This document shows, piece after piece, positions 8,691 to 54,246 of a stretch of DNA of 64,000 nucleotides. The first letter of the stretch is position 1. Every line of letters starts with the position of its first letter. The stretch comes from Heliocidaris erythrogramma (taxonomy: Eukaryota; Echinodermata; Echinoidea; Camarodonta; Echinometridae). The position numbers and the translations under genes were made by a program. The stretch covers positions 19,050,994 through 19,114,993 of the forward strand of contig CM046869.1 in NCBI GenBank assembly GCA_025617745.1, written 5' to 3'. The notes below the pieces were generated by a model that worked only from the letters and a program-made list of their open reading frames with translations, was not told where the DNA came from and did no database searches.

Positions 8691-9297
8691 TGTGCATGTC
8701 TCTATTATCAGTAAACCGAGACTGCAATGAAGTACAAAAATCAAAAGTGTCAAAAATTTATGTCGCTTCTTTCAGCAACTTGCTCGCAAACAAAATTTAG
8801 AAACAGGAATGGTAATAGCAGCAAAAAGTGCATGTATGCCTGTGTGGGGGGGGGGGGGGCACTCATACATGTACTAGGTTATGGGGTGCACACATTAATG
8901 CACCATGAGTAGAGCTATGACAATACACCATCATTTCTTTTTTCTCTGACTCTGCTACACTTTTTGACAAGATGGGAATGAAGTAGACTTCTCAAAAATG
9001 CTTGTTTTTCTTTCCACATGAAATTGACCTGTCATGATCAATGAGCCCTGATGAGACCCCTTATATATATTATCCCAATAACTTGGTATAGAGTAGTTTA
9101 TTTTTGAGTGGAAAATGAAATAACATTGGATGAATTGAGTTTTTACCACATGAAACAATAATTAGGCAGTGGCAATATGCTGTATAATTCAAATAGGATT
9201 AAAAAGATTATTTCCAACTTCTTTTTCACTTTCAGAACTTGATGGTATAACAAGTTTGACATCATCCAAGTATCTTTGGCAAAGAATTAAAGTTAAG

Positions 9298-12200: not shown

Positions 12201-12818
12201 TCTTTATTATCAGTGGTGGTGGTGGTGGTGGTGGTGTAGTGATTATTTATTATTTTATTCAAAGAGAACTTTTAGTTAGAGGCAGCATTCTTGTTAGTAC
12301 TTACCACTCCTGGGGCCTCTTGCATAAAAAGCTGTCCTTAAATGCAACTCCAAAAAGTAATCAAGCTGGTTGTTTGAGAATGAAGTAAAATTATGTTTCT
12401 ACTTTTGCGTAAATGTAACTTTTAATGCAAGAGTCCCATACGCCAAGATTTGATTTTACCACAGGTGGAAACATTCATGATTTCATGTAGTAAATCTAGC
12501 TTTTGTGTTCATTTGTTTCCAGAGGTTACCAGCTACGCAGAGACAGCTCAATATCTAAGGAAGGTCATTCATGATATAGGTCAAGAACTCAAATCCTCCG
12601 CCATAGCTATGCAAGTGAGACGAACCCATGATGGACCATTTAGTGTTGAGCATGCACTGCTCAAGAAACATTGGAAACTGAATCACGTAGCTGCAGCCAT
12701 TGAGGAATGCCGGCCGCTGGTGAGGCCGTCGGACCTTGTCCCGCTTAGTCAGGGTAGGGAGGCAGTTAAAGTGATGCAGGAGGTGGATCAGAGGTGGAAT
12801 CAAATTCACCTGGAGTGA
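9298..12818 (+). CDS. TRUB2: TRUB2-type mitochondrial pseudouridine synthase, 329 aa, 5 coding exons
   Basis: Coding exons 9298-9424, 10071-10283, 10715-10858, 11692-11901 and 12523-12818 join in frame, all introns in phase 1, to 329 aa (human TRUB2 is 331). The family converts uridine to pseudouridine; vertebrate TRUB2 acts in mitochondrial RNA granules on mt-mRNA. The N-terminus has the TruB block GLFAVYKPEGLSPQ. The catalytic motif is GLDTKACGVMVL, with the nucleophile Asp at about residue 106. QEAYELAVRGLLHPVGRTNP and the C-terminal AIAMQVRRTHDGPFSVEHAL also fit TRUB2. The ATG at 9298 gives an N-terminus of the right length; an acceptor ending at 9235 suggests this exon also holds 5' UTR, with a non-coding first exon upstream. 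The first intron appears to use a GC donor (GAAG|GCAAGT), needed to restore phase and the LLEELNS junction. The last eleven codons lie in a tandem repeat. Confidence 0.92.
10299..10556. repeat. Polypurine tract in TRUB2 intron 2
   Basis: Long stretches of A and G on the plus strand (GGAGGA, GAAGGA, GGGGAAG words), with one mixed interruption near 10430-10500. Part of it repeats with a ~24-bp period (GGAAATGGGGAAGGAGCAGGAGAA-like units near 10345-10400). Mirror-symmetric purine tracts of this kind can form triplex DNA. It is not coding, although both strands give long ORFs. Confidence 0.8.
11945..12235. repeat. Dispersed repeat and (GGT)n run in TRUB2 intron 4
   Basis: The segment from about 11945 to 12200 has the word order TTTGACAAGACATTCATTTACG, AATGGGTACCTG and ATATGCGCTAAACAAG, resembling SINE-like repeats of marine invertebrates. 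A short GGT run follows at 12214-12235. Confidence 0.4.
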
Positions 12819-18912: not shown

Positions 18913-19967
18913 CTACACCCCAGGCTTGCTGAAGTCTTTGACGCAGGTCCTGGGTACACGGCCTTTGCGACCTTTCACCTCTACTTCCAACCAATCGCCA
19001 GCTGCGGGTGTTAGAAAGATGAGACAAAACTGGAAGATTAGTATATCTTGTTGTCATAATGATTTTATGTTCTGTGGGCACCATTTTCAAGAGTCCCTTT
19101 TTGTGACATCACAGACATATAATAGTCCAACATTCAACAATAATGACGAACAGTATTCATAAAGGGATGTCGTGTTCCTTCTGAATCAATTAATGATAAA
19201 CATAAAGCTAATGGTCTTGATTTCTGAAAACTAAAAAATCAGAAATTTCCGAACATCACTTTTAAAAATAATATTTGACATAGTGACTCAACACTTACTC
19301 CAAGACATATTTACAGTCTTCAACTTTAAGATCTGCAAATCTAGAACTTGATATGAAGTGGTAGTATATAAAAGAATCGAATCGACATTTTTGCACACCT
19401 ACAGAAGTACGGTAAAACATTGTTGTATACAAACTCCTGGGAAATTTCTTTGTTAAACGAAACCTTGTTAGATTGTACTGTACATGTATATGTTTTAAGT
19501 GCTTTATAATCCAGAATATTATTATTATAAAATCATTCCTATTATCATCATCATTATTATCATAACATCAGGGCTAAAAAACACTAGAATACAAAAAAGT
19601 GAGAGCAGCAAAACTACTTTGGTAGTTTTTTTATAGCAGTGTTTCCTAGAACAAGGTTCTACTGCATTTCTTTCAGCACTAAACAAGAATTTCATATTTC
19701 AACTGACAAGGCCAACAGGTTCAACATACCTTCTCCTGTGATGGTGATCAGATCACCCTCCGATACAGACACCTCTCCTTCTACATCAGTCTGGTGAGCG
19801 GCTATGACGAGGGCTGTCTTCCGCTTGCCTGGCTGGTTCGGCCCTGGACCTTTACCCACACGCTGCTTGAGCTCTGACTTGAAAGCCACGATGGGTGGCT
19901 GATTTCCAGCCACATTGGGCTTGTTTGCGGTCGCAGGCTTAGGTCTTTCTGTTGGGGCTGGTTTTTG
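18913..19967 (-). CDS. Last two exons of the oxidase activator: C-terminal SH3 domain
   Basis: Exon 19967-19730 ends GGAGAAG|GTATGT and exon 19001-18913 begins after CACCCGCAG; joining restores phase 1. The SH3 core reads ALVIAAHQTDVEGEVSVSEG, DLITITGEGAGDWLEVEV, then KGRKGRVPRTCVKDF and a short tail to TAG at 18915-18913. The acidic SEGD, the ligand-binding Trp of DWLEV and the GRVP proline are present. The usual ALYDY aromatic pair is replaced (ALVIAAH) and the terminal Tyr of PxxYV is Cys, so ligand binding may be altered. In p67phox the C-terminal SH3 binds the p47phox tail; whether this one does so is unknown. The region before the SH3 is basic. Confidence 0.8.
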
Positions 19968-22900
19968 CTGCAAGATTAGTTAACAGTATTTAAATCTATG
20001 AAATTCTCACAGAAATATGTTAAGTCACCATAAAATCTTTCCTTTACTTTATATTTTGAATTAAAAACTATAAAGACTTACAGTCTTGAAAGACTGATTA
20101 CAAAATGAAATGAATGCGGTGCATAGTAGATTCTTTATATTTCACAATTTTGATGATTGTTTTGCAAAAACTAAGTGCATAATGTCTACAGAATCAATGT
20201 CAAGTCTGGACACAGATTGATCAATGAAGACAATGCAAATTTAGCTTGACCGTATCATTGCGCATCAGGACACAAGGATTTCTGTCAATATCCCACCAAT
20301 GTGGATGTGCCGACTAAATAATGATAAAGTATATTTCTCTCAGAATCTAACAAAATTTACACTGAAAATTCAGTAAAACATATAAATTACACATGTATTT
20401 TCACCAAACAAACTGTACAGAGAACATAACAAGCTGATTGATTAGAAAACAAAGATGAGTAAATCAAGCTGGCAGTTCAGAACAACAGATCAACAAGTCC
20501 CAATCATGTATCGTCATGCTGGTGTTTCGAAAAGTTTACTAGGTAAAGAAAACATTATCTGCATGATTTAGAAAAACCTTTAGCCAGTTCCTCTCATTAT
20601 CCATTCTTATTTTATACCAAAACTGACAATTACAGACATTTGACAAGAGTTGTTACCTCTTTCTGCACTGTGACAGCAGCAGCTTTCCTCACAACAGGTG
20701 GGCTGTCTGACACAATCTTGACCAGCTTGGCCTTGTTACCAGCAGGCTTTCCACCATTAGACACTACATGGTTGTTGAACTGCTTGCGTGGAGGAACAGG
20801 CAATGGCCCTTTCTGTGGGGGAGGTGGAGGCGGTAGTTCTGGCAGTCCAGGGCTGGATGACCTCCTTCCTGGATTTAGGAGCTTGTTTGCATTTGAAGGT
20901 GGTGGTGGAACGGGTCTATCTTGAAAGATGTTGCCACTTCCAGGCTTTGGCCTTGGCGGAAGCTCAGGTTCTCCTGTACTGGACCCAGGGGTAAGTGGTA
21001 CTGGTTTTGTCTGAAGACTATCGGCGGAGGGTTGCCTGATGGGAGAACCAGGCATAGGTCTGGGAGGCAGTTCTGGCATTGATTGGATTGGTTTTGGAGG
21101 AGGTGGTCTTGATGGCAAGTCATCTGGAGGGCCTCCTGTTGGTAATGCAGGAATGGGTCTGTTAGGTAAATCAAACGAGTTAGTCTTCATAACAGGAATC
21201 CCAGGTAACTTGCGTCCTGCATTTGGGGAAGGCGGGACTGGTCTATTGCTTAGGTCACTCGTTCTTGTTGCAGTTGGTAAGGGCCTGGGGGGTAAGTCTG
21301 GTTCATCTTTCCCAGGAGGTGGGGGCACTTGTCTATTACGAAGTTCTGGTGAAGCAGTGCCAGGTCTAGGTGGAACAGGCCTATCAGCAAGGGATAATTG
21401 TCCACTCTGATTATCAGAATTGCTAGGTGCTTGTGGCAATGGCCTCTGAGGTAGCTCAGGGGTACTAGACTTTTGGGGAGGGCCAGGTAATGGTCTATGT
21501 GGAGGAGGAGGGCTGCTTCGGTTTGGTGTCGGCAGAGGTCTGCCAGGTGGAAGATCTTCATTCTGTTCTAAGACAGGCCTTTGTGGCAGCGGGCTGGCTG
21601 GGACTGGACTGCTACGAGACGGTGCTGGCAATGGTCTAATTGGTGGACCATCACCAGTTTTCTCTGGGACAGGCCTCTGAGGAAGTGGTCTATCAGGGGC
21701 TGGGCTCAAACGAGTTGGTGAAGGCAACGAACGATTTGGTGGTAACTCAGAGCTATTTTTTCTTCCAGGACTCACAGGAAGCGGTCTATCAGGAACAGGA
21801 CTTAATCGAGTTGGTGAAGGTAGAGGACGACTTGGTGGTGCCTCAGAACTGTTCTTCTTCCCAGGACTTACAGGAAGCGGTCTATCAGGGACTGGGCTTA
21901 GACGAGCATGTGGAGATATTGAAAGATTAGATGATAGCTCAGAACTGATCATTCTCCCAGGCAGAGGTCTTTGAGGGACAGGACTACTGGGTGGCGGTGT
22001 CTGCGGCAGTGCTCTGTCAGTGTTGAACCCTCCAGAATGAGATGGTGGAGCCCTGTTTGGTGGCTTGGAACTCTGCAAAGACTCAACTGTCACAACAGGC
22101 ATCTTCCATGGAGCTTGAGTATCCGGTAGACTAGGTTTTGGCTGTTGTGTCTTGCTGATTGGAACTGGCAGGGCTTTAGAGTGCGCAGATGATGGTGTCG
22201 GTGTTCTACTTCTTGGACTTAATGCTGGTACACCAAGAGAGCTGGATGTCTTGGTAGGTGGAGGAGTCGAGGAGCCCTGCGATGAAACAAAGACCATAAA
22301 AAAGAAATGTTGACTATGCTGAAATCATATTTTCAGTAATTCTTTAAAGGGAAAGTCTATCCAGGTATTCAGTTGATTTCAATAAAAGCAGAAAATGAGA
22401 GAAACAGATTAGTGAAAGTTTGAGCAAAATCCAACAAGAAATAAGAAAGTTATGAATTTTTGAAGTTGTAATCAATCAAACACAAATTGGCAACTGTACG
22501 TGACTTATCTTGCGAGCTGCTCTCCCATTTCTTCTGTAGAGGAAATTTCATAAATATTCATTTTCTTAGTTATTGGTGAAGGCATACACTTATCTCATAC
22601 AGGTTTTCTGTAAAAACATGTGCAATTATTATATCTAGGTTTCATGTATGATTGAATATTTTATTGACAAGAAGTGGAAATTTATGATTTTTTTTTTAGT
22701 ACAGGGCAAATGGGAGAGGAGCTAACATAAGATACGCCATGGAGTTGCCAATTTGTTTTTGATTAATTACAACTTCAAAAATTCACAACTTTCTTATTTC
22801 TTATTGGATTTTGCTCAAACTTTCATTGATCTGTGTCTTTAATTTAATTCTCATTCATTTAAAACCAACTTGATATCTGAGAGGACTTAAGGTTTTAAAG

Positions 22901-25900
22901 TAGCTGCATACACAGTCAAACCTGCTTTAGCGACCACCTGTATAGAAAGACCACCGGTCTATAAAGACCATAATTTTCGTTTCCCTTGAAAAGTGTTTCT
23001 CATTGAAACATGTATTAAAAGAACCTGTACATAAAGACCGCTTTTCTTGTCTCCCTTGAGTGGTCTTTATAGACAGGTTTCACTGTACTTCAATGAAATC
23101 AAAATTGGTTTATTTATATCATTATTGAAGAGAGCACATTCTGTACAGTACATAATTTTGTAATTTCCATTCAGGCATTGCCGTTTCTTGGCATGGGTAG
23201 ACAAGAACTGTTCCAGAATCTTATTGGAAAGCAAAATTTATTTTGCCCCCACAAAACAGGTTTACCATTTCTCTCAAACTCTCAAGGATTTTTTGTCTTA
23301 CATGCTCAGACAAATTAATACATCCTCAGACAATACCAAACCTATTTTTCTACCATGTGAAATACTAAATATTATCTTAATTATTATTTGACTCAAGCTA
23401 AAATTGCATTTAAAGAGTGTCAAGAAAGATATACAGTGGAAACTCTCTACAACGAGGACCTTCAGACCATGAAAATTACCTTGTTATATCAGGAATCTCC
23501 TTTATATCAGGGTTAACGAACAAAAGAACAAAGACCTGTGACCAGCAAATTTGCCTTGTTATATCAGGAATCTTGTAATATCGCAGCTCTTTATAACAAG
23601 TTTCCACTGTAATGAGAATGCATCATACTGTAAATCACTAACCCTTCTCACTGTTGGCAACTTGGCAACAATCTTGGCTTTGCCGAGGTAGTCCTTTCTG
23701 TCCAGGTTATCGATCTTGGACTTGGGTGGCTTGAATAGTAGCGTCTTTGGAAGCTCATAGAGTTTGAAGGGGCGACCACTCTGCAATGGATCATACACAT
23801 AATAAAAGTTAATAAAAATTATGTATTCATTGACAAATGAAACATAACAGAAGAGTTTGCTGAAAGAGATAGCCATGTCATACCCTTGTATATCCTCTCA
23901 CTGCTCTGTGATACACACTAGATACTGAATACAAATCATCTTTTGTTTAAATTTCAACTTCTGCCTTTATCACAATGTAGAATTTTAGCAAGACCTGGAT
24001 TGATAACATAAAGCAGTGGACAGGATGTCTTTTGAGCAGCTAACTAGGACAGCTGAAGACAGAAAGTTATGGAGAACCTGTGTCTCAAGATCCATCAGAC
24101 TGTCGCCCCAACGGCCTCTAATCTATGTATGGGACATAGATAGATACCAGTAGATAGATGGATAGAATTTGACAAACTGTATGTACTCTAGCAAACTGTT
24201 CTAAAACGAATCCTTCATAGATGATAATAATAATAACAAGTACACCAGTAATTCAGCACAACTTTTTCAAGGTTCCACTGATAATGAGAACATAGAAATT
24301 TCCCTCTTCATCATTTCTAAGTGAAAATTTATTATAATTTTGGATTGGTTTAATGAATTCTATTCAAGTCTATCACCATAAATGGTGCAAGAATTTCAAC
24401 AAAGCTTTGTTTTGGAAATTTGTTTTTTCAGCTTTTTTAGAATATTGGAATTTTTAATTTGTAAACAAATCTTTCGGCATATTATTGGAATTGTTTTGAT
24501 ATTTTCTGCAATCCACCATTTATAACATGACCAATTAACTCATTCATTTACAAATAATGTTTTGTCACTCCGCTTTTTTAACCAATTGCCTACTGGAACC
24601 GGGCAGTTCCTGTAATAAGCCTGAGGGTGAGAAGAGAATTCATAATCAAGGGGTTAAACGGTTTATTGCATCATGTCTGAATAGGGCTTTAGGGGTCACT
24701 GCAGAATCATAATCATAGAATCTGTATGTCATGCTTACAGTGAAAGCCCTGTAGGAGTCGTCTATCTTATCATGTCTGGGATCGGCCTTGCATTCTCGGG
24801 CCTCGTCCAGTTGGTTCCGAGCCCAGTCTTTCTGGTCTAGTTCATTGTAGGCCCATGCCTGATTATGAAGAACCTGTACAGGAAATTATGACATTAACAA
24901 GTGACTTTCATATTACAGTGAAACCTGTATATAAAGCCTGTTGGCTGTTCAAAGGAGACAAGAAAAGTGATCCTTATGAGCATTTGGTCTTTATGTACAG
25001 GTTACTTTAGTTTCAATGAAAAAGTCTGTTTTGAGGGAAACAAAAACTGTTTTTATAGACAGGCGGTCTTTCCGTACAGGTGATCAAGCAGGTTTCACTG
25101 CATGGTATATTCTTGAACCAGTGTAAAAGATCCTCAAAGCAACAGGAAAAATACAAATGTAGCATAATACGGCAAAAGGAAATCCCAGACAGCACATTAA
25201 ACTTTATAAGCCATACAAGGGAAAGATGACATACCCACATTTTGTAATTATTATATTGTCACTTTGTAATCATGCTAACTCTTAGTGATCATCTGCTGTC
25301 AAAAACACTTGATAGTTTGAAATGATTAGGGATTTTTTTTTTGTGACCACATCGGACATACAAGATAAGCTAGAATTATATCACTTTTTTTAGCAGTATC
25401 AGAGCTTAATGCATTTTTACAGCAACCTACCTCACACTTGTGGAGTTTGTACTGCAACCCGAGCTGCTTGTAGTCAATCGACTTGCCCCTGAGGGTCTCT
25501 CGTGCCTTCTCAAAGGCATGCCATGCACCGTCGCACCTCCCGAGGAGACCAAGGACCACACCCAATTGAAAGTGACCAATGGCGAGATGAGGATCCCTTG
25601 ATACGACCTCCTTCAAAGTCTGAGCATTAAGGGTGATAAAGGAGGGAGACAAGATAAATAATAATTAGCGATAGCACGCAAGAAGGGCATTCATGTGAAC
25701 TGTTAACGTTGGTAATCACTAAGGCACAACCTAATAAAAAAGCAGAAAATATGTAATAAGCTTTATCAATAATCAACGGCAAGATTGTGATCCCTTGACA
25801 CGACCTCCTTCAACGTCTGAGCATTAAGATTGATAATGGGAGGAGTGACAATGAAATGTACAATGAAATATATTTATCAAGGACACACGAAAAAGACCTT

Positions 25901-28900
25901 GATGCAAATAATGGGCATTGATTCTTATTCAGCATAACTTTAACCCATTCTGTGACATCAAATTCTTGAACATCTTTTTCGTAGGTGACTTTTCAAGAGT
26001 CAAATTTTGATGATTTTGATGATTGCAAAATGTCTTGATAAGACTGGCCAGGGTTAAATAAAATTATCCTCACTGAACTAGCATCCTCCAGCTGTCCCAG
26101 TGACTTCTGCAGGATACCGATGCTATAGAGGATCTTTGATGATGGATCAACAATGCCGTTCAGTTGATTCAAGGCCTCGGTTGGATCTCCTTTCTCGAAG
26201 GCCACTACCCCCTCGTACCAGGTTGCTATGGTGTCCTTGTGCGTCATCTTGGCAACCATCGAGGGAGTGGGTGAAGAGGAGCCATTGAATGTTGGAGATG
26301 GGTCCTCGACGTCTGATAAGTCATCGTCTATGGGACGGAAGGAGGTGTTTGGTGGGAGTTGGAGGCTGTTCTTTGGAGCTTGGAAATTCTACATGAAAGA
26401 AAAAATAAAGAGGTAAGGCAATGATAAATTGCTAGATTTATTAAAAATGGAAGCATAAATTCTGTTCAAAGGAGAGAGGTTGACTACCAGAGATTATATA
26501 GAGAAATATAGTTTCATTCATATAGCCATGGTCACAAAAAAGTCAACTGCATGCCTATGCGGATAACAGTTTAATATTTAAAGTTTAAATCTTTAAAGAG
26601 GAGGTTGAGTTCTGGGAAAGGTGAAAAATAATGAGCTTTCTCTTTCCTTTTATGTCAGTTTGGAAGAACATCATAGGAAAAATTTCCCCAAGCTGAAAGG
26701 ATTGCTCTTCAAATGCCTTCATATTTGAAACATGAGGGCATTTGGCAATAAAATTAATCCTTCAATGGCTTATCAAACTTAGATTTATAAGTTTAAAAAA
26801 TTAAGGGAAAAAATGAATAAAATTGAATAAATTGAATTTAAAAAATAAAATTGATCTATACATGAATAACTGTACAAAATAAATCATGAAATGGACAAAG
26901 AAAAGCAACAAGTAGAAAGTAAACTACGTGTCCACTGACACGTAAAAATGTAATACAGAGTGAACTTTGTCCTAAAAATGCAAACATTCTAGATGTATAT
27001 TTAGTTAACTACTTCCTGACACAGACATGACGCATCATTCTAGTAATTATGTATATAGTAGGCCTATAATAAATTATATGTGGTCATATTACTTTGCCAT
27101 CTCCAGTGGTGTAGCCATGAGGGGGGGGGGGGATAAAGAAAGAAATAAAAGAGATAAGGACAGAGATAGAAAATGATAGATGGGAAGGGGACAAAGAAGA
27201 TGATAGAACCTCATTCAACACTATCCCTCTATTGTGTGTTATAGTGGATATGCACTTCTTACACTAATGCTGAAGCCTCCTCAATGGCTGGACCCCATCC
27301 CCCCTGGTTTATTAAATGGCCAACACAAAAAGAGAGGGGGAAACAAAAAGTGAAAAAAAAGACAATACAACCCCCTCCCACACCCTCCCAGTAATTGATG
27401 GCCTCAAGTGCTAATCCACCTTTCATCAACCTCTCAGTACCAGTGCCCCCCCCCCCCCCCCCCAGTGTTCGGACTCAGCTACACCACTGCACATACATTT
27501 CTCTCATTAGATCCAGCTGGTACCAGGATAACACGTACACAGAGAAGTGATTCATTCTCAATTTAACTATTAATCAGACATCATTTTGTGGCTTTTGATA
27601 TATTCATCAGGTTGTTTATTCTGCAGTTTTCAATTTATTACCTAATTACTTCCCTGCAGGGTGGAAAAAAGTTCAATGTCTATATTGAGGCAAATCAGCC
27701 AAGGTTATGTGTTCACTGATTTTACACACTAAAACTTGTTGACAAACAATAACATGTACATGCTAATATTTTCATTGGGGTAATTGTTAATATATATCTG
27801 GATATATTTAAGGTCTTGGGGCTGTTTTCTCTCATACAATTCAGCTTTATACTTTTATCTAGGTGGGGGAAAGGTGCTTCCCCTCCACGTCTCTGTTTTT
27901 CCCCAATTGAATATAAGAGGGAGAGGCTGAATTACCATAATTCAATTTCTGCACGATGTTGTATTTCTGGCCTACAAGGGGGATTTTTTTGGGGGGGAAG
28001 GAGTGTACTCCTGCACACATAGGAAATATCAAGGTTCACATTAACATGTCATTTTTGCTTACTCATTGAAAAAAAACCACAGACACACATAACAAATACA
28101 CAGTCTATTCAAAACATTCAGAACGTTATAACTCAGTGAAACCGCCAAACTGACTCCAAACCAACTCCAAAGTCCAAACTACTGTAAACGCTGTTATTTT
28201 TGCGCGATTAATTTTTTTTTCCACGCTGAGCAACCCAAAAACTTATACGCGGGTTCTTAAATTCACGCTGCACAATTGCTCGCTCGAATACATACGGTAT
28301 ACATAACTACACATACATGCTAGAAAATGAATTGCACACACACACTGTGACACACACACATTAATTTGCTGAAGCGCGCAATTCAAACCGCATAGGAAAT
28401 CATGCTAATATTTTTGCGAGTTCTAGAATTCACGCTTGCTGAAAATACCGGTAGCGCAAAACAACGAAAATTTCCACGTATACAGACAGTAATACAATCA
28501 TGGCCATTTGGGGTAATGCAAATTTTTGGTTGGTCTGTTCAGAGGCAGATCCAGTATTTTGTAAAGGAGGGGGCACAGTGCCGTAAAACTGTATGGTACT
28601 TACGGTATGCCAGTTGGGTTTCAAAGGGGGGGGGGCACAAACAGTCCAGTCTCCCCCTATGCAGATCCACCGCTGGATCTGTTGTCCGGCTGGTGTTAGT
28701 CCCTTTAACTTTACTGAGGTAAATATGGGGATTTCCCCTCCCCCCTCAAAAAAAGTATCAAAAATAAAACTCATCCCTTACATAAACACACCCAGTAACG
28801 CTCACTTCTGTTTCAAACAGAGTCTTCTTTTCAATATTCAAAAAGTTAACTACCTGAAGAAAGCATACTAAAATGGGTATTTCCAAACAAAAGTAAAGGC

Positions 28901-31900
28901 TCATCCTTTTAATGTAAACAAACCAATAACTGTACCTTTCAATTTCAGCTGAATGATTCCTATTTCTTGTCATACATGTATAAAGTAAAGGTCTTACTTA
29001 GATTAAAGGGAAGGTTGAGTTCAGGGAAAAGTGAAAAATAATTTGTGAGCCTTCTCATTTCTTATATGTCAGTTTGGAAGAACATCACAGTAGAAAAGTC
29101 CCCTGAAAAGGATTTCTCTTCAAATGCCCTTATATTCCAAATATGACGAAAAATAGCTGAAGTGTTCGGGCCGAACATTCATGCCACATCTGTGTGCAGT
29201 CCCATATACCCATTTCTGTTTGCGGTGCATGTGCTTCTGAGCGAGTTTGGGTTGATTTCTTATCATTTTTGACAATTCCAAAACCTCACAGTATACACCA
29301 ATCCTTATTTAGACATGATCAACCTTCCCCAATTGCTTCCAGACAGTTTCTTTCACAACGTAATCACATGAACTGAATTCAACTTTATCTTTAATAGTGA
29401 AAGCATTAATATTGTTGTGATTAGGGGTAATGGCCGGTACGACCACATGCGAAGCTTCCTTTTGTTAAACCTGAAAATGTTTTCAAACAAAACTAAAATA
29501 AGCCGATAAACAAACCAATAACAGTCACTTTCAATAGGGATGATCTGTTTTTCTTTTGATGTGTAAAGGCCTTGATTACAAGTGAAAACATAGGTTGGTA
29601 TTCTATTAATTCACTGAAGCGGGATGCATGGTTGAAAGTGATGTGTAACAAACAAAAAACTTTAGACCTCAGTCCATGCAACCGTGCAAGTTATCTCAAA
29701 TGGTTAGCCTAATTATGGAGTTTCCTTTTCTTCTTAAAACATGGGGGGGGGGGGGGAATCACTCAAACATAAAATAAGGCTCATCCTGTACATAAACAAA
29801 CCAAGAATAGTCACTTTCAGTTTCATCCATTTTTCCTTTAATGTGTACATGTAAATAGGCCTTGCTCAAACTACAAGTGAAAGCATAAATTCTGAAAAGA
29901 GGTGTCTGAATTTGAAGGCTGAATGTTTCCTTTTCCTCTGAAAACATCATAAGCTGAACTTCCATTTGTCATATAATTACCTTGTTACTCCCAAATATAA
30001 ATTCAAGTACTCTTTGCACCTAAATTGCATTTTCATTTTTACATGTATATGTATACCTCATGTATCAACAATAGAAAAGCCTATACACATCGAACATTAT
30101 CCAAATCCCTCACTTGAAAGAGAAGGTTGATTTCTGGGATAGGTGAAAAATAATTTGTGAGCTTTCTCATTCCTTTTATGTAAGTTTATAAAAACATCAT
30201 AGTAGAATGGTGCCCTGTAAAGGATTGCTCTTCAAATGCCCTCATTCACAATACGACGAGAAATAGCTGAAGTGTTCGGGCCGAACATTCATGCCACATG
30301 TATGTGCAGTCCCATATACCCGGTTCTGTGTGCAGTGCATGTGCTTTTCGGTTAGATGGGTCCATTTCTTATCATATTGATGATTCCAAAACCTAATAAA
30401 CCACTTCTTATGTAGACATAATCAACCTTCCCCAATTGCTTGGAAACTTTACTTCTTTCATAATGTAATCACATGACCAGAACTCATTGCTATTTGTAAC
30501 ATATGTTTTTGCTATTAAATGTTAGGGAGAGGGCACTTTGTAATCAATGATGGGGGTAATAAAATTTCAGTTTTGAGCGCTGCTTTTTTAGACCTTAGTG
30601 GATTTGACTCAAAGTGAATGACAGTCATTTAATGCATTACAATCCACTGAAATGATTTGTTTTTGGAGGAGTGTCCCTTTTTCACTGAATTACACTACTT
30701 TTATGATGAATTTATCAAAACATACAGACAAATTTAGACATGTTGTACACATAGCAATAAGGTACTTGCATGAGAAAGTGAAAGTTCTAAAGTTAACTTC
30801 AAAAGTTACCTCGTCACAATTTTAGCCTACTCCATGAGCAGGAATTGAACTGCATGTTTACTATACTGTGTACACGTATGACAGTAAATGCAAATTACCA
30901 AGATATTTCAAAAGATAATTGCTAAAACCACTGGGAGATAGTTTGAATAGGGATTAACTTTACAGAAGGGTAAGAGTGCTCAATGGAGACAAAGGTTGGC
31001 CCTTGAGTGTTAGCTAGCACGGAGGCCCAGAACCAATAAATGCCAGTGATACCAATTCAAGAAAAGGACCACCTACAACTAAGTTGGCTCCAGAGAAATA
31101 ATTGGGAGATCTGTGTGTGTGCGTGTGTGTGTGTAATTGGGTTTTTACAGACGTGTATCAATCAGATATGATTATTTACGTCTGGGACCGACCTTTAACG
31201 TCACCATCCCAAAGACGTGACTCAGTCTCGAACCTGGGTCCGCTGAATCAGTTTATAACTTCCACTGGTAGCTGGATTACAGGCGCACGCCACAACGCCC
31301 AGTTAATTGGGAGATCTGAATTCTAAAGATCTTCATGTACATTGTATATATGTATATGTATGTTTGCATGTCTGGTAAAAGCTTGGTGAAAGCACTTACC
31401 AGTATCCACAAACATCCATTTTATATTGTTCGTAATTAATAGATGGTACAAATGACCCTATGTATAATGATCCTAATTTTTTACGCACATGTGCATTTGT
31501 TTTGGTGGATGCGCTACATGTTTAACAAGTAAAATCATGCTGGTGCTCGCATCATGGTGCACAATCTATGAAAGCGTAAAGGTAAAGTGTACTAAGTACA
31601 AATGACATTTATCTGCACATGCGGAAATTGTAATTACAAACTGATTACAAACATGTACATGCTGAAACCTTCAATCAATCCATCCATATAGCGCCCCCAA
31701 ACTTGCAAACAGAAAATCCACCGTTTTCATTTTTTTTTCCTCTTCAACAAAATCAAAATGTATCAGCTGTGAGGGAAACTTTAACATTTACATATCTTGG
31801 GCGAAAAACTTATCAAAATGTATTATCGATGAGGGGAAATTGAACAAAATTATGACATCAAAACATTCTGTAGGCGAGAAATGAACGGCAACATATTATT

Positions 31901-34900
31901 AACAATGAAGCACTTTCAAATAGATGTAGTTCATATCCACTTCAACCTTGAAAGAAAAGGCTTCTTAAAGGAGCTCATTAATGCAGTTTTTAAAAGGAAG
32001 AATCTCATTAAACTAGAGATGGAAAGTAATTCATAGCATGAAGCAGAAACCCGAAACCCGACACTGCCACTACACCATGATTTTAAGATTCTTGAATGGG
32101 TGTATCGCTGAAAAGCGATGCTGACTGAAAAGCATACTGCAGCCAAAAACAGTAAATTATAAAGAGACATTATGATTTTGCAACTGACTACATCTGTTGC
32201 CAATTTGATCATGTATTAAAGGGTGTGTTGCACGGCAGATACTGGTTAACGCCATCTATGTCTTTTTTTGGACAACTGCACGTAAACGAATGGACCTCAG
32301 CTAACGGTAGTCAGCGACTTAATCTCTACATGGTCAGCGTCTGCTTAACAGACGGAAGTTACCTTTACTCTTCAGTTTTCGCGTATGTTGCACGTAAGTA
32401 CGTGAGGGAATAGCATGGCCCGTCCAAAGAGTTGCGAATAAACTCGATTGGCCCTGAGTCAGGCCACGGGAAAGACACATAGTCTCGTCAGTCTACACCC
32501 CCTTTAATGCTTCTTTTTCTATGAAACAGAATACATTTAATATTCAAAAAAACTATTTTGCAATGCACAAAACTATACACAGATAGCAGCAAATTTTCAC
32601 AACTAATGACAAAAAAACCCCAACAATCACGATAAAATGAAAACAGATGTGCCATTTTTTCTTTCTGGTCTGTAAATAACATTTATAAGTCTCAATTTTG
32701 GGCAAATTTACATAAAGTACTACTTGTGATATCTAAAATAAAAGTAACTGAAATAAATATAAATAAATAAAAGTGGGCCTACTCACTGTTTCATTGTTGT
32801 TGTTGCTTGACTCGGGCAACTCGCTGACCACCTTCGCTTTGCCGAGATAATCCACATCCTTCAAACCGGCAACTTTGCTCTTGTTTGGGCGGAACAGCTG
32901 GTTGCTAGGCAACACAATAGGCTCGTAAAGCTGATTGGCCTGCAAGAAATATAGAGGGAGTGTCAGATGCCCCAAATGCATACTGTGCAATTGCATTCTC
33001 TCTGCAAGAGACAAAATTTTTCTCCAAGAAGAGACTTGAGTCATGAATTTTTTACTTTGAAATTTCACTGTCTAATAATTTGATCATTCCAAGAAATCAC
33101 AAAATTGCTCAATCTCATTCTATCTCTTTAAATTGTCATCTCCTCAACTACGGAAGTTACAATGACAGGTCTTTAAAATTTAATTACCTGTTAGGACGTA
33201 CTTATTGAAACAGAGTCCATTAAGGGCTGTAAATTGGGCAATTATAGACAAAACTCAGCCACAACACCAAGCAAATTTTTCATAGCAATAGTATGGGTGA
33301 CTCTCCTCTTGTGATGGAAATGAAATACTCTTGATTTTCCAAGGAGTGATAACTCCTTGTTTTTTCTAATAAAAAAAGTAACATAATGGCTGTATTTACT
33401 GTGGAAACTCACTAAAACGAGGACCTTGGGACCATAAAAATTACCTCGTTTTATCAGGAATCTCCTTATATCAGGGTTAAAAAAAAGAAGACCATAAAGA
33501 CCTGGGACCAGTATTAAAAAGTTCCCTTGTTATAACAGGAATTGTTATATTGGAGCTCTTTATAATGAATTTCCACTGTATGCTATTCCAAAATGTGTTC
33601 TCTTATTATCATGTATTTCTATCAGTTCTAAGTAATGAATAATTATACTTAGTTCATACATGTATAATGAAATTAGATGTTTCAAAATAAAAACAATGAA
33701 AACATAGCATTTTAAGGAATGGTACATGTACATGTTTCGGAGTCATGCAAACTCCATCGTCAGCCTGAAGTTTTACAACAGAATCAACTTTATAAATACT
33801 TTCTGATTACAAAGAATATCTACACCGTCATGAGTGAATAAGTGACAGATTTCTAACTCAAAATAAAAGAAGGCCTATACATCAAATGGACCAAACCACA
33901 ACTCAACCAACAGGTGTACAATTATCAAATGATGCTGTCTATTTAATTAATGTATTGTCTATTAGGGTTGTTGACCATTCAGGTCCTTCACCCAATTACC
34001 TGAATTCATAACATACCCTGTACTTATTCACTCATGATGGTTTAGATATTCTTTGTAATCAGAAAGTTTATATAAAGTTGATTCTGTTGTAAAACTTCAG
34101 GCTGACGATAGGGTTTGAATGACTCTGAAACATATACCATTCCTTTAAATGCTATGTTTTCTTTGTTGTTTTTATTTTGAAACTGTTATTGTGTCGTACT
34201 TTTGGAGAAATTAGATGTAAATATAATAATCCATTGATCATCTCTTTAAAGATAAAAGAACAAAACAAAAACAACAAAAACAAAAAAAAAGAAAACATAT
34301 ATGTAGTTGACTGCCATTTAAAAACGCCTTCGGATTGAAGTCTATCTTTTGATTTACGTATGTATTCTTACCAATAATTGCTTCTGGGCCTTTTCAATCA
34401 ATGGGCCATGCCGAGCCTCGACGACGGCTTTCCGAGCTTCTTCAAGTAAATCCAGAGCATACTCTGAATTGTTCATCATGGTAGCATAAGTTAGGGCTAA
34501 ATTGCATAGAACCTGCAGAAATTCAACACCAATATAAAGATCAATTTAAATCAAACATCATGAAGATTTTCTTTATCATTCCCTTAACCCATAGACTATG
34601 GGAACCGGGTGGCTCTTGCATTAAGCCTATGAGAGTTAAAGAATTCAGTAGCCAACGGGTTAATAAGGAGACTTCAAAAGAAACATTGTGTACCAGAGCA
34701 TTCAGCGTACAACAATAAATGTACACAAATCACATCATTGTAAATTTTCATTTTCACATGAAACGTCCTGAAATAATTATTAGTTAACGGACAGTAAAAT
34801 TTCCTTATACAAGAAAAAAGAAGTGAATCCACAGATTCAGGTTTCATTCATAATATCTGTCAAGTTTTCACAGACTTTACCCAAACTAAGGAAATGAAAA

Positions 34901-37900
34901 TTCAAATTAGATTGAAAATAAAATCACAATTCAAATCAAATTGAATTCAATGTACACTGTGGTACTGGCATTTCTACTGATTGTCAATTTCTGATGATAA
35001 ATGAAAGAAAAAATTGACTTCACGAAGCCAAAAGGAAATAATATGTAAACATAATACATGTACATGTATACAGTACAGTGTACATCATTTTATGTAAAAT
35101 CTTGAGTTAATGCCCTGTTGGCTGTGAAGAGCTGAATTCTCTTGTAAATACATCCATGTACGTACGTACCTCGCACTCATAGAGTTTGTGGACGAAGCCA
35201 AGCTGCCTGTAGTCGATGAATCGGTTGCCACGGAGACAGGTCTTGGACTTCTCATAGCTGTTCCTGGACTCATTGTATCGATGTAAATGATAGTTGACCA
35301 TACCAAGCTGGAAGTGGGCCAGGGCCATGTGAGGGTCCTTCTCTACTGCTGCAGAGAAGTTCTAGAATAAAATGTCCAAAATGTGAGGTCATGGAATTTT
35401 AGTTTTGAATGTGAAATGACATAAAACTTATTTTCACAAGATTAAAACACCACACAAAAGTATTATGACTAGTTTAAGTAAAGTATACATCAAGGGCATT
35501 TTTAACAACTGCATACATCAGTTGTTGTACAATAATTGTTTTAATGATAATTATAACTGTTTAAATGGAGCAACTATGAGTTCTCTACAAACCATTGAAA
35601 TTCATTAATGCATCCTGTTCAAAATATCAAGAATCATAATTTTGTAACAAAGGATCAGACTTTTTGTCATGAAATCTTTGGGTTTGCATGTCTTTACTAA
35701 TGTGTGTGCTAATTTACATGTTTCCTTTTTCCCCCAATGAGTACCAAAAAAAGCTGTTAGATATAATTACATGTACCTGTAGCTTCTTCATGTATGATAA
35801 TAATTTCATTAACATTAAAAGTAAGACTCTTCTAATTTTAATATATCAAAGCCTTTCCAGCTACAGGTACAAGTAGCAGACCAGGAAGTTTCTACAATAT
35901 GCGTTACAAGATTTCGTTATCAAACACACTCTTGTTAGAATACATCATCTCCAGAAATAGCCACTCTGTCTACGAGTCCATGAACGATTAAAAGAAACTA
36001 TTCCGTACTCAAAACGATGACCCAAGGAAGTGAATTACAAAAGCCCTCTGTTCCCCCTCCCAACAAGCCATAGCCATTTCCTGTTTTCTTCACTCTCTAA
36101 TCACATTCCGGACAGAGAGAAACTTTCCGAGAAGTCCTAGAAGCAGTTCTTGTGACGTCATCAACCTGAGAAGTGCAATACCTGACTCTACTGTGTCATG
36201 GCACAAGCAGCTGTCAAGAAATCATCATCACGCCTGCCTACACACGACGATGGCCTATGACTAGGCCAATGTCAACCCACTTAATTATTCATCATGAAAA
36301 CAAACAATTTCATTCATGTGACTGCTAATTAACAATGCATTGTACACAGTGGACGACGTAAATTGTGCATCATCTTCAATACAGATAAAGTTGAGCACAA
36401 TGAGTAAAAGAAACTCAGGAAAGGCTGATAATACAAAACATTAACAAAAGTATTTTGTATTGCGAGGTTTCAGAATCATATGATATGATAACTAAGTAAG
36501 TTCAATCTTGATATTGCTAAAAATCATGTTAAGTGAAAATCACTGGTAATAAAAGCAACAAAATAATAAGTTACACAATTATCATGCAAATATTCATATT
36601 TCCTATTGTGAATTCTAAACAAGCTTGCATGATTAAAAAAAGTGATTTTTTTTTCACTGTCATGTGTAATCAAAAACTTGGTGGCACTGTGAATGTTTAA
36701 AATATGAAGGGGAAAAATTAGTCCTATTTATGATAAACATGTAATGGTCATTTTCACGGTAAAGGGTGTAACTCTGATAATTGAACATTTTCAGCTCTAG
36801 TAATATCATAAAGCTACAGAATTCAAAGATTTTTTGGCATATGATACCCCTACTTGGGTGCTGCCTTGGGTAGCATAAGCATCATCAGGGATTACTTCGT
36901 TAGATTTTGGCGGGCACATATGTACCATAAATATGGCCTTTGTGGCATACACCAAACACATAGATATTTTTGTAGAGCCCTGCATTTTTTTCAGGAACAG
37001 TGAGGATTGTTTTTGTTATGCAGATGTGAAGTTAGATGTACAATGAAAAGTACCAAAGAAGTGTCACTGCCTCTCAGTTTTTGAGAACAGGGTGTTGCTA
37101 TTTGTTGTTTCAGAGACTTCATTTTCCGTTAACAATAGTAAACAAACTTTTATGGAAAGAGCTCTGGTGTGTAAAATGCTTTCTGTCATGTTCATTTGCT
37201 CTTCACTTTTTCTTTATTCATTCATGTATGAAGTATGTATCATAATTATGAGTGGCATCAAATGAAAGAAGAAGTTCCAAGCTTTACAAATATGTGTCAG
37301 TTAGCTGAATTTCCAGCCAAGGCAATCCAACATAGGAAATGGTCATCTTTGTTTACATCACAAATAAACTGAAGCCTCCGAAAAATATGAAATTTCAACT
37401 TCCTCATTTGAAATGCGATTTCACTGGAATTTTCGTTGGTAACTAGCCTTCACTGAATGGTATTCGTATAATAATTCTTACTTTGCTTTAACTCTTGGAA
37501 GATAGGAAAATTTTTTAATTTAAATGTCAAAGTCATATTTTGTCTTGAATTTGAAAAAAAAAAAAATGATTTTTTTTTTTAGACCGAATAAGTTTGACCA
37601 AAGCATTCAAGTACATTAGGATGGCAAATGAAAAATGAGTAACGTCGTCCATCGAAACAGATATTTTCTTTCCTTCCTGCCACTTTGTAATTCTTTCCTC
37701 TCTTTATCCGTTTTTCCGATTTTCTACAGTTGATGAATCAACTCTTTTTTTCTTTGAAACATTATCAATTTCTAATTCAAAGAACTGGTATGTATATATA
37801 CATGTGTTATTTCACTATTAAAACAAAACAAACAAAAAAGAAGAAAACATCCTGTTTTTTTCAAATTGAAACAAGATGGCTAACTGATTTAATTTTTTAT

Positions 37901-40322
37901 CTTTATTGCATGCATGATATCAGTTCACGAAATCAAACCTAAAGGAAAATTTCTCTCCCTTTGTGTGATATCAAAATAACATCTTTTTCTTGGCAAAGTT
38001 CACTTTTTTGAGCATGATCGCAGAAATAAACCGGATGTCTTCAAGCTAGCAAAAGCAGAAAATTGTCAAAGAAATCTGTGCAAACACAAAAGTGCTAAGA
38101 ATTCACTGAACGGCACAAAGACCTGTTTACTTTTGAAACAGAGAAGAGAGACAGACTACGGTAATGATGATTTTTAGAGGTGACCTCAAATCTGACACTT
38201 TTTTTGTTTGACCAGTGCAAAAGCTCAGCATATGTCTCATTGGCATTCTGCCCAACTCGCACTTGATTGCTTTTGAACTGTAGTGCATGTGGGCTGGGCA
38301 ACAGGGAAATCCCCCAAAATATAATTACACATGCACATGTATGCTCACTAATGAACAGCACTAATTTGCAAGAAATTTCCAGTTCCCATGTTTGTGAACT
38401 CTCCCTTACCTCTTACTCTACTTTATTTAGTATCTCGTCAATGCATTCAACTATGAATATTACATCTGATGTAAATACATGTATTAGTAAATGAAGAAGC
38501 TTGATGGGAGGAATTTTAACACTGGGAGTAAAATGCCTAAAAATTTGTTTACAGATGTAAATATTATTCACAATTTTTGAGGGATTATGACATAGATAAA
38601 TTTGTAAGTTTGATGTAATTTTAGCTTAAAATTTACACACACATATCAACTTCCATTTCATACTTGCATTGAATGGAATTTAAGCATTCTCTTTCTCCCT
38701 TATCTATTCTTGATTATTTTTGTTCACATATGTACCTGGCCTATACCTGGCCATGATCTAAAGAACTAAAGGAGAGAGTTTTCCGTCACTGACTGGACAC
38801 CTAAAAACACTCCATCCCAATTTTTTTCAAGAAGTTCTTTAGACTTATAATGGCAAATCTCAAAAGACCCGAATCATTATCTTCATTGTCATCACCATCA
38901 TCATCACCATCATCATCACCATCATCATCACCATCATCATCATTTTCATCATCATAATCACCATCATCAAAAATATGCTTTCATAATCATCAACACTGTC
39001 ATTATCTCATTACCGTCTACATATTCTAAAACTAATACAACAAAAATCCATGATAATATTGCTTATGATAATTGAATACTCGTTTCTACCAGGGGCGGAT
39101 ACAGGATTTTCAGAAAGGGGGGGGGGGGGCGCACACTGAGGAACCCTCCATTTGACGAAGCCAAACGGCCATCTAGGAGGTCCGGGGGCTTACTTTGTCA
39201 GACAAAACAGGGGGGGCGCACGCCCCCTTGCGCCCCCCTCTGGATCTGTGCCTGTCTACAATAACACACATCATGAAGATAAACTCATGAAAGAAAACAA
39301 CAGCATTTGTTAATTGGTACACTACATGGAACGGAGGAAATTGATAATTAGACACTATTTTCAGGTAACGCACGTCTGAATTTATTAGCGTCAAACTATG
39401 CAGAAGCTAAATTGACCTTCCTAAATGTATATATACATGTATGCCACATGTATTGCACAATCACAAAAAGCATACATTTATTTTCTGACTACTCTCATGA
39501 CATGCACGTGCAAGGCAGAAATAGGACTTTATTTAGGTATGTACATCCTTTTATTAGCTGTATAAAGCTCCACATGATTACCTCTCAAAACTACTTAAAG
39601 TATTTCCCATCCAGACCCAAAAACCTATAAATAACATTCAATCAATATAGTTTACATGCAGCTAATATAGCTAGTATTGTAGCTACATGTACATGTAATG
39701 TATTGTCATGTCAACAGTATTTCTAACTTATGACTTGCCACTGAAAGTTTGAATTCGGTACAACTTGAAATGAATCAAAACTGTATTAGGTCTACATGTA
39801 ATTAATTTTAATTTTCAATTATCAAAAATTAGGGTTTATCACATTTTCTATTGATTCACTTTCTCCCAATATTCCCATGCAACAAATGCTTTGAAATATA
39901 TTAAAAACTAGTTTGCAATATAAAGAACACTAGTTTTCCAGGTCATCTACTTTCGAGATTTTCCAGCAGCTTATTAGAATAAAAGAAAATTGCCTTAAGA
40001 ATTTATTCAATAGGGGTGGGGGGGGGGGTTATCAACTCATACCCTCCCCCACCTCCATCCCCCTCTAGTAACACCCTATGTATGATCCTTGTTTCGAAAT
40101 TGAAATAATTAAAAACCTTGATAATCATACCTCTTTGGCAACCTGGGGGTTCCTGAGCACCCAAGCAACCTGCCCCAAATTGAACCTCATTATCGCGGAA
40201 TAATCCCGGATGGATTGAAAGCTGTTGAAGGCATCGTCCCATCTCCCACACTTTGCACTTTCTACGGCATTATTCCAAGTCCCGATCACCTCCTTGAAAG
40301 AAAGCTTTGTAGCATTATCCAT
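18913..40322 (-). CDS. p67phox/NOXA1-like NADPH-oxidase activator with duplicated TPR-activation module
   Basis: Eleven exons join with matching phases to ~1130 aa: 40322-40131, 35361-35170, 34512-34372, 32939-32787, 26388-26074, 25619-25431, 24873-24739, 23780-23652, 22276-20657, 19967-19730 and 19001-18913. All junctions are phase 0 except the last (phase 1). Order: TPR module 1 (residues ~1-175), activation motif DYLGKAKVV (~205-213), linker, TPR module 2 (~269-439), DYLGKAKIV (~469-477), proline-rich region (~483-1022), SH3 (~1065-1125). In human p67phox the TPR domain binds Rac-GTP through an insertion including LRGN; that loop is kept as LRGNRFIDY in module 1 and LRGKSIDY in module 2. 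The activation motif promotes electron flow in the NOX flavoprotein. No PB1 domain or middle SH3 is seen. MDNATKLSF at 40322 is the start closest to human p67phox; the frame stays open to an ATG at 40583. Two separate genes remain possible, but the acceptor and open linker before module 2 argue against it. Confidence 0.75.
20657..22276 (-). CDS. Giant proline-rich exon of the oxidase activator, 540 codons
   Basis: The open frame runs 1620 bp from acceptor CATCGCAG|GGC to donor GAG|GTAACA, phase 0 on both sides. It is dominated by Pro, Ser, Arg and Leu. The middle consists of repeated ~32-36-residue units with RLSPVPDRPLPVSPG-like cores, and RPLP occurs ten times along with RPVP, RPIP, RPMP and RPPP variants. 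These are PxxP-type SH3 ligands. The DNA at about 21690-21920 is itself a tandem repeat with a ~96-bp period. Human p67phox has only a short proline-rich segment, so this block is unusual. The plus-strand ORFs across it are shadows. Likely roles are binding SH3 partners or its own C-terminal SH3, which is inference. Confidence 0.85.
22344..22890. repeat. Foldback element in the oxidase-activator intron
   Basis: It starts TTAAAGGGAAAGTC. The left arm contains AAGTTTGAGCAAAATCCAAC, AGAAAGTTATGAATTTTTGA and ACAAATTGGCAACT; each has its inverse on the right (about 22735-22830). The ends have diverged more than the middle of the arms. No coding content. Confidence 0.7.
22913..23085. repeat. Short TIR element, CAGT(G/C)AAACCTG ends
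   Basis: It starts CAGTCAAACCTG and ends CAGGTTTCACTG followed by TA. A second member lies at 24916-25100 (CAGTGAAACCTG...CAGGTTTCACTG). The contents, including TATAAAGACC words, are shared. The end sequence fits non-autonomous pogo/Tigger-like elements, which duplicate TA. Confidence 0.65.
23434..23609. repeat. Short TIR element, CAGTGGAAAC ends, TA target duplication
   Basis: It begins CAGTGGAAACTC, ends GTTTCCACTG and is flanked by TA on both sides. A sister copy of nearly the same length is at 33399-33578 (CTGTGGAAACTC...TTCCACTG, TA on both sides), with shared GAGGACCTT, TTATATCAGG and GGAGCTCTTTATAA-like words. This suits a Tc1/mariner-type (pogo-like) MITE. Confidence 0.7.
23652..26388 (-). 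CDS. Oxidase activator, second TPR-activation module (exons 5-8)
   Basis: Exons 26388-26074, 25619-25431, 24873-24739 and 23780-23652, all phase 0. The first opens directly after acceptor TTTCATGTAG with 42 codons of Ser/Pro/Asp-rich linker (NFQAPKNSLQLPPNTS...), then MTHKDTIATWYEGVVAFEKG, the first TPR helix. The next exons carry DPHLAIGHFQLGVVLGLLGR, the LRGKSIDYKQLGLQYKL Rac-loop region, and NQAWAYNELDQKDWARNQL with the DPRHDKID turn seen in p67phox. The last encodes FKPPKSKIDNLDRKDYLGKA, the activation motif. An alternative donor GGG|TTAGT-like site at 23642 would add three codons to exon 8. Confidence 0.85.
24916..25100. repeat. Second copy of the CAGTGAAACCTG TIR element
   Basis: It starts CAGTGAAACCTGTATATAAA and ends CAGGTTTCACTG. 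It shares AGGAGACAAGAAAAG and TTTATGTACAGG-type words, inverted, with 22913-23085. It lies in the intron between exons 6 and 7. Confidence 0.65.
27104..27489. repeat. G-tract TIR element, ~386 bp
   Basis: The left end CAGTGGTGTAGCCATGAG with a following G run mirrors the right end, a C run followed by CAGCTACACCACTG. No ORF. Elements with related layout (CAG-rich end plus G run) are at 28540-28675, 39090-39254 and 49810-50506. Confidence 0.65.
28540..28675. repeat. G-tract TIR element, short copy
   Basis: CAGAGGCAGATCCAG at the left and CAGATCCACCGCTG at the right are inverted partners with GGATCTG/CAGATCC cores. G-rich runs lie inside. Confidence 0.5.
28769..29965. repeat. Interspersed short repeat, four copies of ~50 bp
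   Basis: TAAACAAACCAATAACAGTC-type sequence followed by CTTTCA recurs near 28778, 28914, 29506 and 29790, three times preceded by GGCTCATCC-like words. The copies share one orientation and lie in the exon 4-5 intron. Confidence 0.6.
31170..31305 (-). repeat. SINE-like copy with a 7SL (SRP RNA)-like head
   Basis: On the minus strand it reads CTGGGCGTTGTGGCGTGCGC then CTGTAATCCAGCTAC, close to the conserved 5' domain of 7SL RNA (GGTGGCGCGTGCCTGTA...CCAGCTAC). It continues AGGTTCGAGACTGAGTCACG and ends TTAAAGGTCGGTCCC. The later half matches another copy at 53508-53560. A B-box-like GGTTCGAGACT is present for polymerase III. The 7SL comparison is from memory and needs an alignment. Confidence 0.5.
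32217..32508. mobile_element. TTAA-bounded TIR element, ~290 bp
   Basis: The left end TTAAAGGGTGTGTTGCACG mirrors the right end ACACCCCCTTTAA. Short internal palindromic words are present. It probably belongs to the same broad group as the other TTAAAGG-ended elements. No ORF. Confidence 0.6.
32787..40322 (-). CDS. Oxidase activator, first TPR-activation module (exons 1-4)
   Basis: Exons 40322-40131, 35361-35170, 34512-34372 and 32939-32787, all phase 0 and bounded at the same protein positions as exons 5-8. Exon 1 carries KEVIGTWNNAVESAKCGRWD and MRFNLGQVAWVLRNP. Exon 2 carries DPHMALAHFQLGMVNYHLHR and LRGNRFIDYRQLGFVHKLYE, exon 3 VLCNLALTYATMMNNSEYAL. Exon 4 has LFRPNKSKVAGLKDVDYLGK and ends GAAACA|GTGAGT. 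That donor's phase fits the acceptor at 26389, giving a module 1-linker-module 2 protein. Upstream of MDN at 40322 the frame remains open for at least 87 codons to an ATG at 40583; this stretch lacks recognisable domains and could be N-terminal extension or 5' UTR. The 4.8-kb intron 1 shows no further exon. Confidence 0.82.
33399..33578. repeat. Sister copy of the CAGTGGAAAC TIR element
   Basis: CTGTGGAAACTC at the left, TTCCACTG at the right, and TA on both sides. It lies in the intron between exons 3 and 4 of the oxidase activator. Confidence 0.65.
33676..34182. repeat. Foldback element, ~500 bp
   Basis: TTTCAAAATAAAAACAATGA and AACATAGCATTTTAAGGAAT at the left are inverted at the right (ATTCCTTTAAATGCTATGTT, TTTTTATTTTGAAAC). 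AGAATCAACTTTATAAA also pairs with TATAAAGTTGATTCT, and CAAAGAATATCTA with TAGATATTCTTTG. No ORF. Confidence 0.75.
34560..34680. repeat. Dispersed repeat fragment
   Basis: TTAACCCATAGACTATGGGAACCG followed by AAGCCTATGAGAG resembles segments near 13818 and 24580 that contain CTACTGGAACC and are followed by AAGCC or AACCC words. Confidence 0.35.
38881..38965. repeat. (CATCAT/CACCAT)n microsatellite
   Basis: About 85 bases of CAT/CAC trinucleotides, in intron 1 of the oxidase activator. Confidence 0.85.
39090..39254. repeat. G-tract TIR element
   Basis: The left end CAGGGGCGGATACAGGATTT plus a G run mirrors the right end CCCCCCTCTGGATCTGTGCCTG. The CAGGGGCGGATCCAG-type end is common in hAT-like non-autonomous elements (remembered, not searched). 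Confidence 0.55.
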
Positions 40323-40751
40323 GTTTTTAGTCCTTTTCAACTCGTTTTCATTCTCCAAATTTCCATGGACTGGACAAGTCACGAACGATTGCCTCTGGGG
40401 CGACGGATCCCCTCGCAGGGGCACTATTTTGATTGACTGCTTTGTACGGTGTCCTGTGATACAACCGACTTGGTTCCCCTGAAAGTCCAACGATTTTCCC
40501 TGTCCCTTATCGCAGCAACATAAGCCAACATATCTGTCCTGGTTGATGTTGGAAAGTTGTGACGAGGAAAACATCTGCGTCATTTCTGTCAACAATTTTC
40601 GCCCCCTCGTTGAAGATTTAAACTTTCTGATGAATCACTATAGGGCCTTTGCAGTGTACAGTCTAGCCAGTCTATCACAAATTCAGTAGTTCATGACCAA
40701 GCACATCGCTGCATAGTCTTCCAATGAATGAGGCTGAGCTGGGCACATGCA

Positions 40752-54063: not shown

Positions 54064-54246
54064 CCCTTTGGCTTCCTCGAAGCGATACTGGCTAATCTGG
54101 ACGTGACCGATGTTGAAGAGAATCGTGGCGGAGGGGTCATCGATACCCAGGAGGGTCTGAAGAGCGGCGTCAACGTTCCCCTGGTCGAACGTCTGCACGC
54201 CCTCATGCCAGGCCTGGAGCATGTCCTTGTGCGTCTGCTTGCTCAT
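54064..54246 (-). CDS. Third p67phox-like first TPR exon (alternative first exon or relic)
   Basis: ATG at 54246 in a good start context (CGACCATGA) opens MSKQTHKDMLQAWHEGVQTF, then IDDPSATILFNIGHVQISQY and EEAKG, and donor GGG|GTAAGA ends it in phase 0. The 61 codons align with the first TPR exon of both modules; QTHKDMLQAWHEG is closer to module 2 (MTHKDTIATWYEG) than to module 1. No partner exons 2-4 are visible between 54.0 and 40.6 kb. All later exons start in phase 0, so it could splice to exon 2 at 35361, giving an isoform with a different N-terminus from an upstream promoter. It could also be a remnant of a third copy. The open frame and intact splice donor argue for use. Confidence 0.7.

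Follow-up and report, generated by a model that had tools for sequence, protein, structure and literature searches.

The window analysed here, a 64,000-nucleotide stretch of Heliocidaris erythrogramma DNA, carries on its minus strand two sets of exons for the TPR and activation domain (AD) module of p67phox-type NOX activators, which raises the question of whether the sets belong to one gene or to two neighbours, and whether both modules would still work with Rac. In human phagocytes p67phox turns on the oxidase that produces superoxide, and each NOX2 is activated with a single p67phox module. A natural chain with two diverged modules would let one ask if oxidases can be clustered by one activator molecule, and a different Rac contact changed in each module would provide a means to ask which residues tune Rac binding. 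The architecture itself is already known, which makes this a useful test case and not a new kind of protein: a p67phox-like protein from Strongylocentrotus purpuratus with two TPR and AD sets has been in print since 2007 (Kawahara & Lambeth 2007; PMC2121648), and a preliminary description of this DNA was thus wrong to hold that p67phox and NOXA1 proteins are all limited to a single TPR domain and a single AD. On the sequence at hand, the locus is probably a single p67phox-type NOX activator gene in which the whole TPR and AD module was duplicated internally, with both modules Rac-dependent.

Gene layout

Eleven minus-strand exons between 40322 and 18913 join into one frame of 1130 codons plus a stop, with no frame break (Table 1). 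Exons 1a–1d form set 1, exons 2a–2d set 2 and exons 2e–2g the tail. All ten introns have GT/AG ends; nine are in phase 0 and only the last is in phase 1. The two sets of four p67phox-type exons with DYLGKAK(V/I)V were correctly recognized in the preliminary description, and the exon boundaries of one set correspond in position to those of the other. The donor of exon 1d (GAAACA/GTGAGT, 32787) and the acceptor before 26388 share a phase, as had been claimed. Scored leave-one-out on the ten introns only, this donor (7.1 bits) and acceptor (4.4 bits) fall among the values of the remaining nine introns (3.3 to 8.1 bits for donors, –3.9 to 12.1 bits for acceptors). The linker ahead of set 2 is open as described, with a length of 43 codons to the first Met of set 2 rather than 42. 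No acceptor is found at the ATG of exon 1a; the frame is open for a further 104 codons upstream, to 40634, at a codon score of –0.04 per codon, a non-coding value. Within the intron preceding exon 2b lies a partial copy of the start of that exon together with its acceptor (25774..25851, minus strand; tblastn E 0.088). It is broken by an in-frame stop and, if spliced, would truncate the protein.

Table 1 Exons of the predicted activator gene and the candidate upstream exon (all on the minus strand).
Exon	Position	Strand	Content
0a	54064..54246	-	First-TPR type, own ATG, donor GGG/GTAAGA, phase 0
1a	40131..40322	-	ATG start and module 1 first TPR
1b	35170..35361	-	Module 1 TPRs, with Rac-contact hairpin LRGNRFIDY
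1c	34372..34512	-	Module 1 TPR region
1d	32787..32939	-	Activation domain 1, VDYLGKAKVV; position 204 Val
2a	26074..26388	-	Acidic linker, 43 codons, and module 2 first TPR
2b	25431..25619	-	Module 2 TPRs; hairpin LRGKSIDY, shorter by one residue
2c	24739..24873	-	Module 2 TPR region
2d	23652..23780	-	Activation domain 2, KDYLGKAKIV; 204 Ile, 196 Lys
2e	20657..22276	-	Proline-rich tail, 540 aa, 17 RP[LVIMK]P motifs
2f	19730..19967	-	SH3 domain, first part
2g	18913..19001	-	SH3 domain, last part, and stop

The two modules and their Rac contacts

Both modules have a p67phox-type N-terminal TPR domain. Pfam finds TPR repeats in each, and both align end to end with residues 1–209 of human p67phox, with 49 columns invariant across the three sequences. 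The top matches in a search of PDB sequences are human p67phox TPR-AD chains (E 1.7e-39 for module 1 and 2.6e-35 for module 2), far beyond chance resemblance. Set 1 and set 2 have 75 of 209 aligned residues in common (36%), and human p67phox shares 78 of 207 residues with module 1 and 74 of 203 with module 2. As the pairwise identities among the three are all near 36–38%, the duplication would appear to be old, though three sequences cannot date it.

The TPR edge of p67phox hydrogen-bonds Rac through S37, D67, H69, R102, N104 and D108 (PMC3314626), among which Asp-67 and Arg-102 are described as the two critical contact residues (PMC2121648). At these six positions module 1 has A, D, H, R, N and D, and module 2 has S, D, H, R, K and D. 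Each module thus keeps five contacts and has lost a different one (S37A and N104K, respectively), while Asp-67 and Arg-102 are kept in both. The hairpin of module 2 has also lost position 106 through deletion of one residue. In the activation domains DYLGKA is intact in both modules and position 204 is hydrophobic in each, Val in module 1 and Ile in module 2; for comparison, two fungal NOXR proteins are reported to have Leu there (PMC2121648). Position 196 is Val in set 1 and Lys in set 2.

The last two exons encode a C-terminal SH3 domain (Pfam SH3_9, E 1.1e-9). A PDB search with it returned spectrin, Shank and CIN85-type SH3 domains, and none of the 37 sequences listed is named p67phox. Pfam finds no PB1 domain, as present in vertebrate p67phox and NOXA1, in the exons scanned. 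Exon 2e, which matches no Pfam family and contains a 96-bp tandem repeat, is rich in one type of motif: its RP[LVIMK]P count compares with a shuffle mean of 0.65 and is reached in none of 1000 shuffles. SH3-ligand motifs number 17 of class-I-like type (shuffle mean 5.0) and 12 of class-II-like type (shuffle mean 4.9). For plain PxxP there is no clear enrichment (48 versus 40, reached by 60 of 1000 shuffles).

Comparison with known activators

With its Ile at 204 and Lys at 196 in set 2, the predicted protein is, by sequence, of the same kind as the two-module S. purpuratus protein. The second AD of the latter is described as having Ile at the Val-204 position, and a basic residue like Lys-196 is reported, among p67phox-like proteins, only in this C-terminal AD (PMC2121648). 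Two TPR and AD sets, C-terminal proline-rich regions, an SH3 domain and the lack of PB1 are likewise common to both, and PMC2121648 describes sea urchin and Ciona p67phox-like proteins as lacking PB1. The two differ, in a comparison by description and not by sequence, in that the second AD of S. purpuratus is in that paper's wording not well conserved, whereas the window keeps KDYLGKAKIV; and the passages of PMC2121648 on this protein mention no alternative first exon, whereas the window has a candidate, exon 0a. Human p67phox (NCF2) resembles the window protein in its TPR-AD module, Rac contacts and C-terminal SH3, but has one module and also PB1 and a central SH3-A, neither of which is found in the window. 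NOXA1, compared by its description in PMC2121648 and not by sequence, is similarly a TPR-AD activator with a C-terminal SH3, but is a vertebrate duplicate with one module and PB1.

What the H. erythrogramma locus adds is modest: a second AD that is well kept in a protein whose two modules differ at their Rac contacts, a tail that is an RPxP array, and the existence of a candidate alternative first exon. A literature search over titles, the starts of abstracts and a few passages returned no two-module activator beyond PMC2121648, and no functional test of the two-module architecture was found in the literature. In viral contigs there were 59 pattern matches, with no relative by tblastn.

One gene or two

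Exon sets 1 and 2 and the tail very probably form one gene, judged from sequence features. Two adjacent genes, with set 1 encoding a TPR-AD protein without a tail and set 2 plus the tail an ordinary one-module activator, are distinctly unlikely. Such an arrangement would leave set 1 without a docking tail, since no relative of the tail or of the SH3 domain was found by tblastn at E up to 10 in the 6.4-kb gap between the sets (26389–32786); a separate tail for set 1 within the gap was rejected on the same search. When 8 of the 11 minus-strand ORFs of at least 60 aa in the gap were run against Pfam, they gave three weak matches, all under the cut-offs. Exon 2a has an acceptor that allows joining in phase 0, and the published S. 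purpuratus protein has both sets within one model (PMC2121648). For two genes speaks an in-frame Met in exon 2a (MVAK) at the position of the human p67phox start, so that a separate start there is possible. The linker that precedes it begins directly after the TAG of the acceptor, and an open stretch of 43 codons occurs by chance in 1264 of 16727 intron windows (7.6%), or in 29% when the base composition of the linker is used. The codon score of the linker is the highest, and no window among 5580 from introns attains it; the scale, however, was derived by training on the gene itself and in part reflects GC content, as the other two frames of the linker also score high (0.39 and 0.30).

Base composition also bears on this choice. 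Over set 1 the observed/expected CpG ratio is 0.44, compared with 0.47 in the gap and 0.39 for set 2 and the tail together, and the loss of CpG is paralleled by an excess of TpG/CpA (1.29, 1.26 and 1.24, respectively). Outside the gene the ratio is 0.77 (40.7–54.0 kb), 0.72 (55.3–63.0 kb) and 1.07 (15–17 kb), but 0.29 at 17.0–18.9 kb. Invertebrate methylation is reported to lie mainly on transcribed gene bodies, where methylated CpG is lost by mutation (PMC11292947, PMC8857923), and the depletion over set 1, gap, set 2 and tail therefore looks like the footprint of a single transcription unit. The 1 kb preceding exon 2a has a ratio of 0.14 (rank 5 of 631 windows), compared to 0.60 for the 1 kb preceding exon 1a and 0.79 for that preceding exon 0a. 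Two CpG-rich patches within the gap, at 28.0–28.5 kb (1.25) and 32.0–32.5 kb (0.90), could be a promoter, as two genes would have it, or mobile elements. With its open frame, no second tail found in the gap and the common CpG depletion, the single polypeptide with two modules proposed in the preliminary description is the better-supported reading.

The linker (26262–26388, minus strand) also resembles the start of an AD exon, with the pattern LPxNxxFRP. In a post hoc comparison the likeness had shuffle values of 0.003 against exon 1d, 0.014 against exon 2d and 0.068 against the human sequence, and a profile score of –2.8 bits. As a weak lead, the linker could be what remains of an additional AD exon.

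Proposed roles of the two modules

In the single two-module protein, the tail would dock the chain on a p47phox-like organizer, Rac-GTP would bind a module at its TPR edge, and electron transfer would start as the AD of the same module engages the dehydrogenase domain in an oxidase of Nox2 type. An insertion in NOX2 is described as the site where both p67phox and Rac dock in the activated human complex (PMC13296129). Module 1, with Val-204 and a hairpin of canonical length, would most likely be the main activator, and module 2, with Ile-204, Lys-104 and a shortened hairpin, most likely not a dead copy but a second module that has diverged and depends on Rac, with another strength or partner. 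As each module keeps five Rac contacts and has lost a different one, both may still use Rac, with different strength or partner.

It is doubtful that module 2 is instead a relic or a purely structural element that has lost Rac binding and activation and serves just to space or inhibit module 1. The N104K change, the deletion in the Rac hairpin and the Ile at 204 fit such a loss, as does the published verdict on conservation of the second sea urchin AD (PMC2121648). However, the two modules are equally close to human p67phox; module 2 contains no stop or frame break and retains S37, D67, H69, R102, D108 and DYLGKA. An extension of the favoured reading, which we regard as rather improbable, is a bivalent activator whose two different Rac-dependent modules hold two oxidase heterodimers together or serve two Nox2 paralogues, with exon 0a possibly swapping the Rac face of module 1. 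The preliminary description had put forward bridging of two oxidase heterodimers or of two GTPases as a possibility; in each module one Rac contact is altered. Since S. purpuratus is reported to have two Nox2 genes, Nox2A and Nox2B (PMC2121648), assigning one module to each paralogue would be reasonable, but only as a guess.

A candidate alternative first exon

Besides 1a and 2a there is a third first-TPR exon, 0a, which lies 14 kb upstream of the gene start, outside the span described earlier. It was found in two ways, by tblastn with module 2 (E 9.9e-13) and with a three-sequence profile (E 1e-12), and has 61 open codons from its ATG and a donor of 8.3 bits. Its identity is 44% with exon 2a (27 of 61) and 28% with both exon 1a and the human sequence. 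Exons 0a and 2a differ at 24, 22 and 38 of 61 first, second and third codon positions, respectively, so most changes are at third positions. A complete third module was rejected, as partners of the b, c or d type are missing among the 2229 six-frame ORFs of the window. Splicing of 0a to 1a, with 1a as an internal exon, was also rejected: there is an in-frame acceptor at 40575, but it has no pyrimidine tract, and the frame upstream of exon 1a scores as non-coding.

Exon 0a may tentatively be read as an alternative first exon of the same gene, either replacing 1a by splicing to 1b or giving a one-module form by splicing to 2b. This does not exclude, and is compatible with, the single two-module gene. 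An intact ATG exon with changes concentrated at third positions, 44% identity to 2a and a phase-0 donor like those of 1a and 2a agrees with such a use, as does the finding of no exon of 1b–1d type between 0a and 1a. Against it, the 13 kb between 0a and 1a are not CpG-depleted (0.77) and hence do not form a gene body like that of the activator. On its own 0a matches no Pfam family, and its match to p67phox in the PDB is weak (E 0.01), with repeat-rich designed TPR chains scoring better. It could instead be an orphan exon or part of another gene.

Other features of the window

Downstream of the activator gene, an ORF at 1900–2217 (minus strand) matches Pfam ANAPC_CDC26 above the cut-off (E 3.8e-12), and pieces of a TruB-type pseudouridine synthase gene lie on the plus strand at 9166–12815, with matches to TruB_N (11643–11945, E 0.0026) and TruB_C_2 (12426–12815, E 0.00078) that are both below the Pfam cut-offs. 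An RNase H-like ORF at 57465–58049 (minus strand; E 0.0068, below the cut-off) is possibly from a retroelement. At the far end of the window, an exon of the major facilitator superfamily (MFS_1, E 2.6e-8) occupies 63456–63998 on the plus strand.
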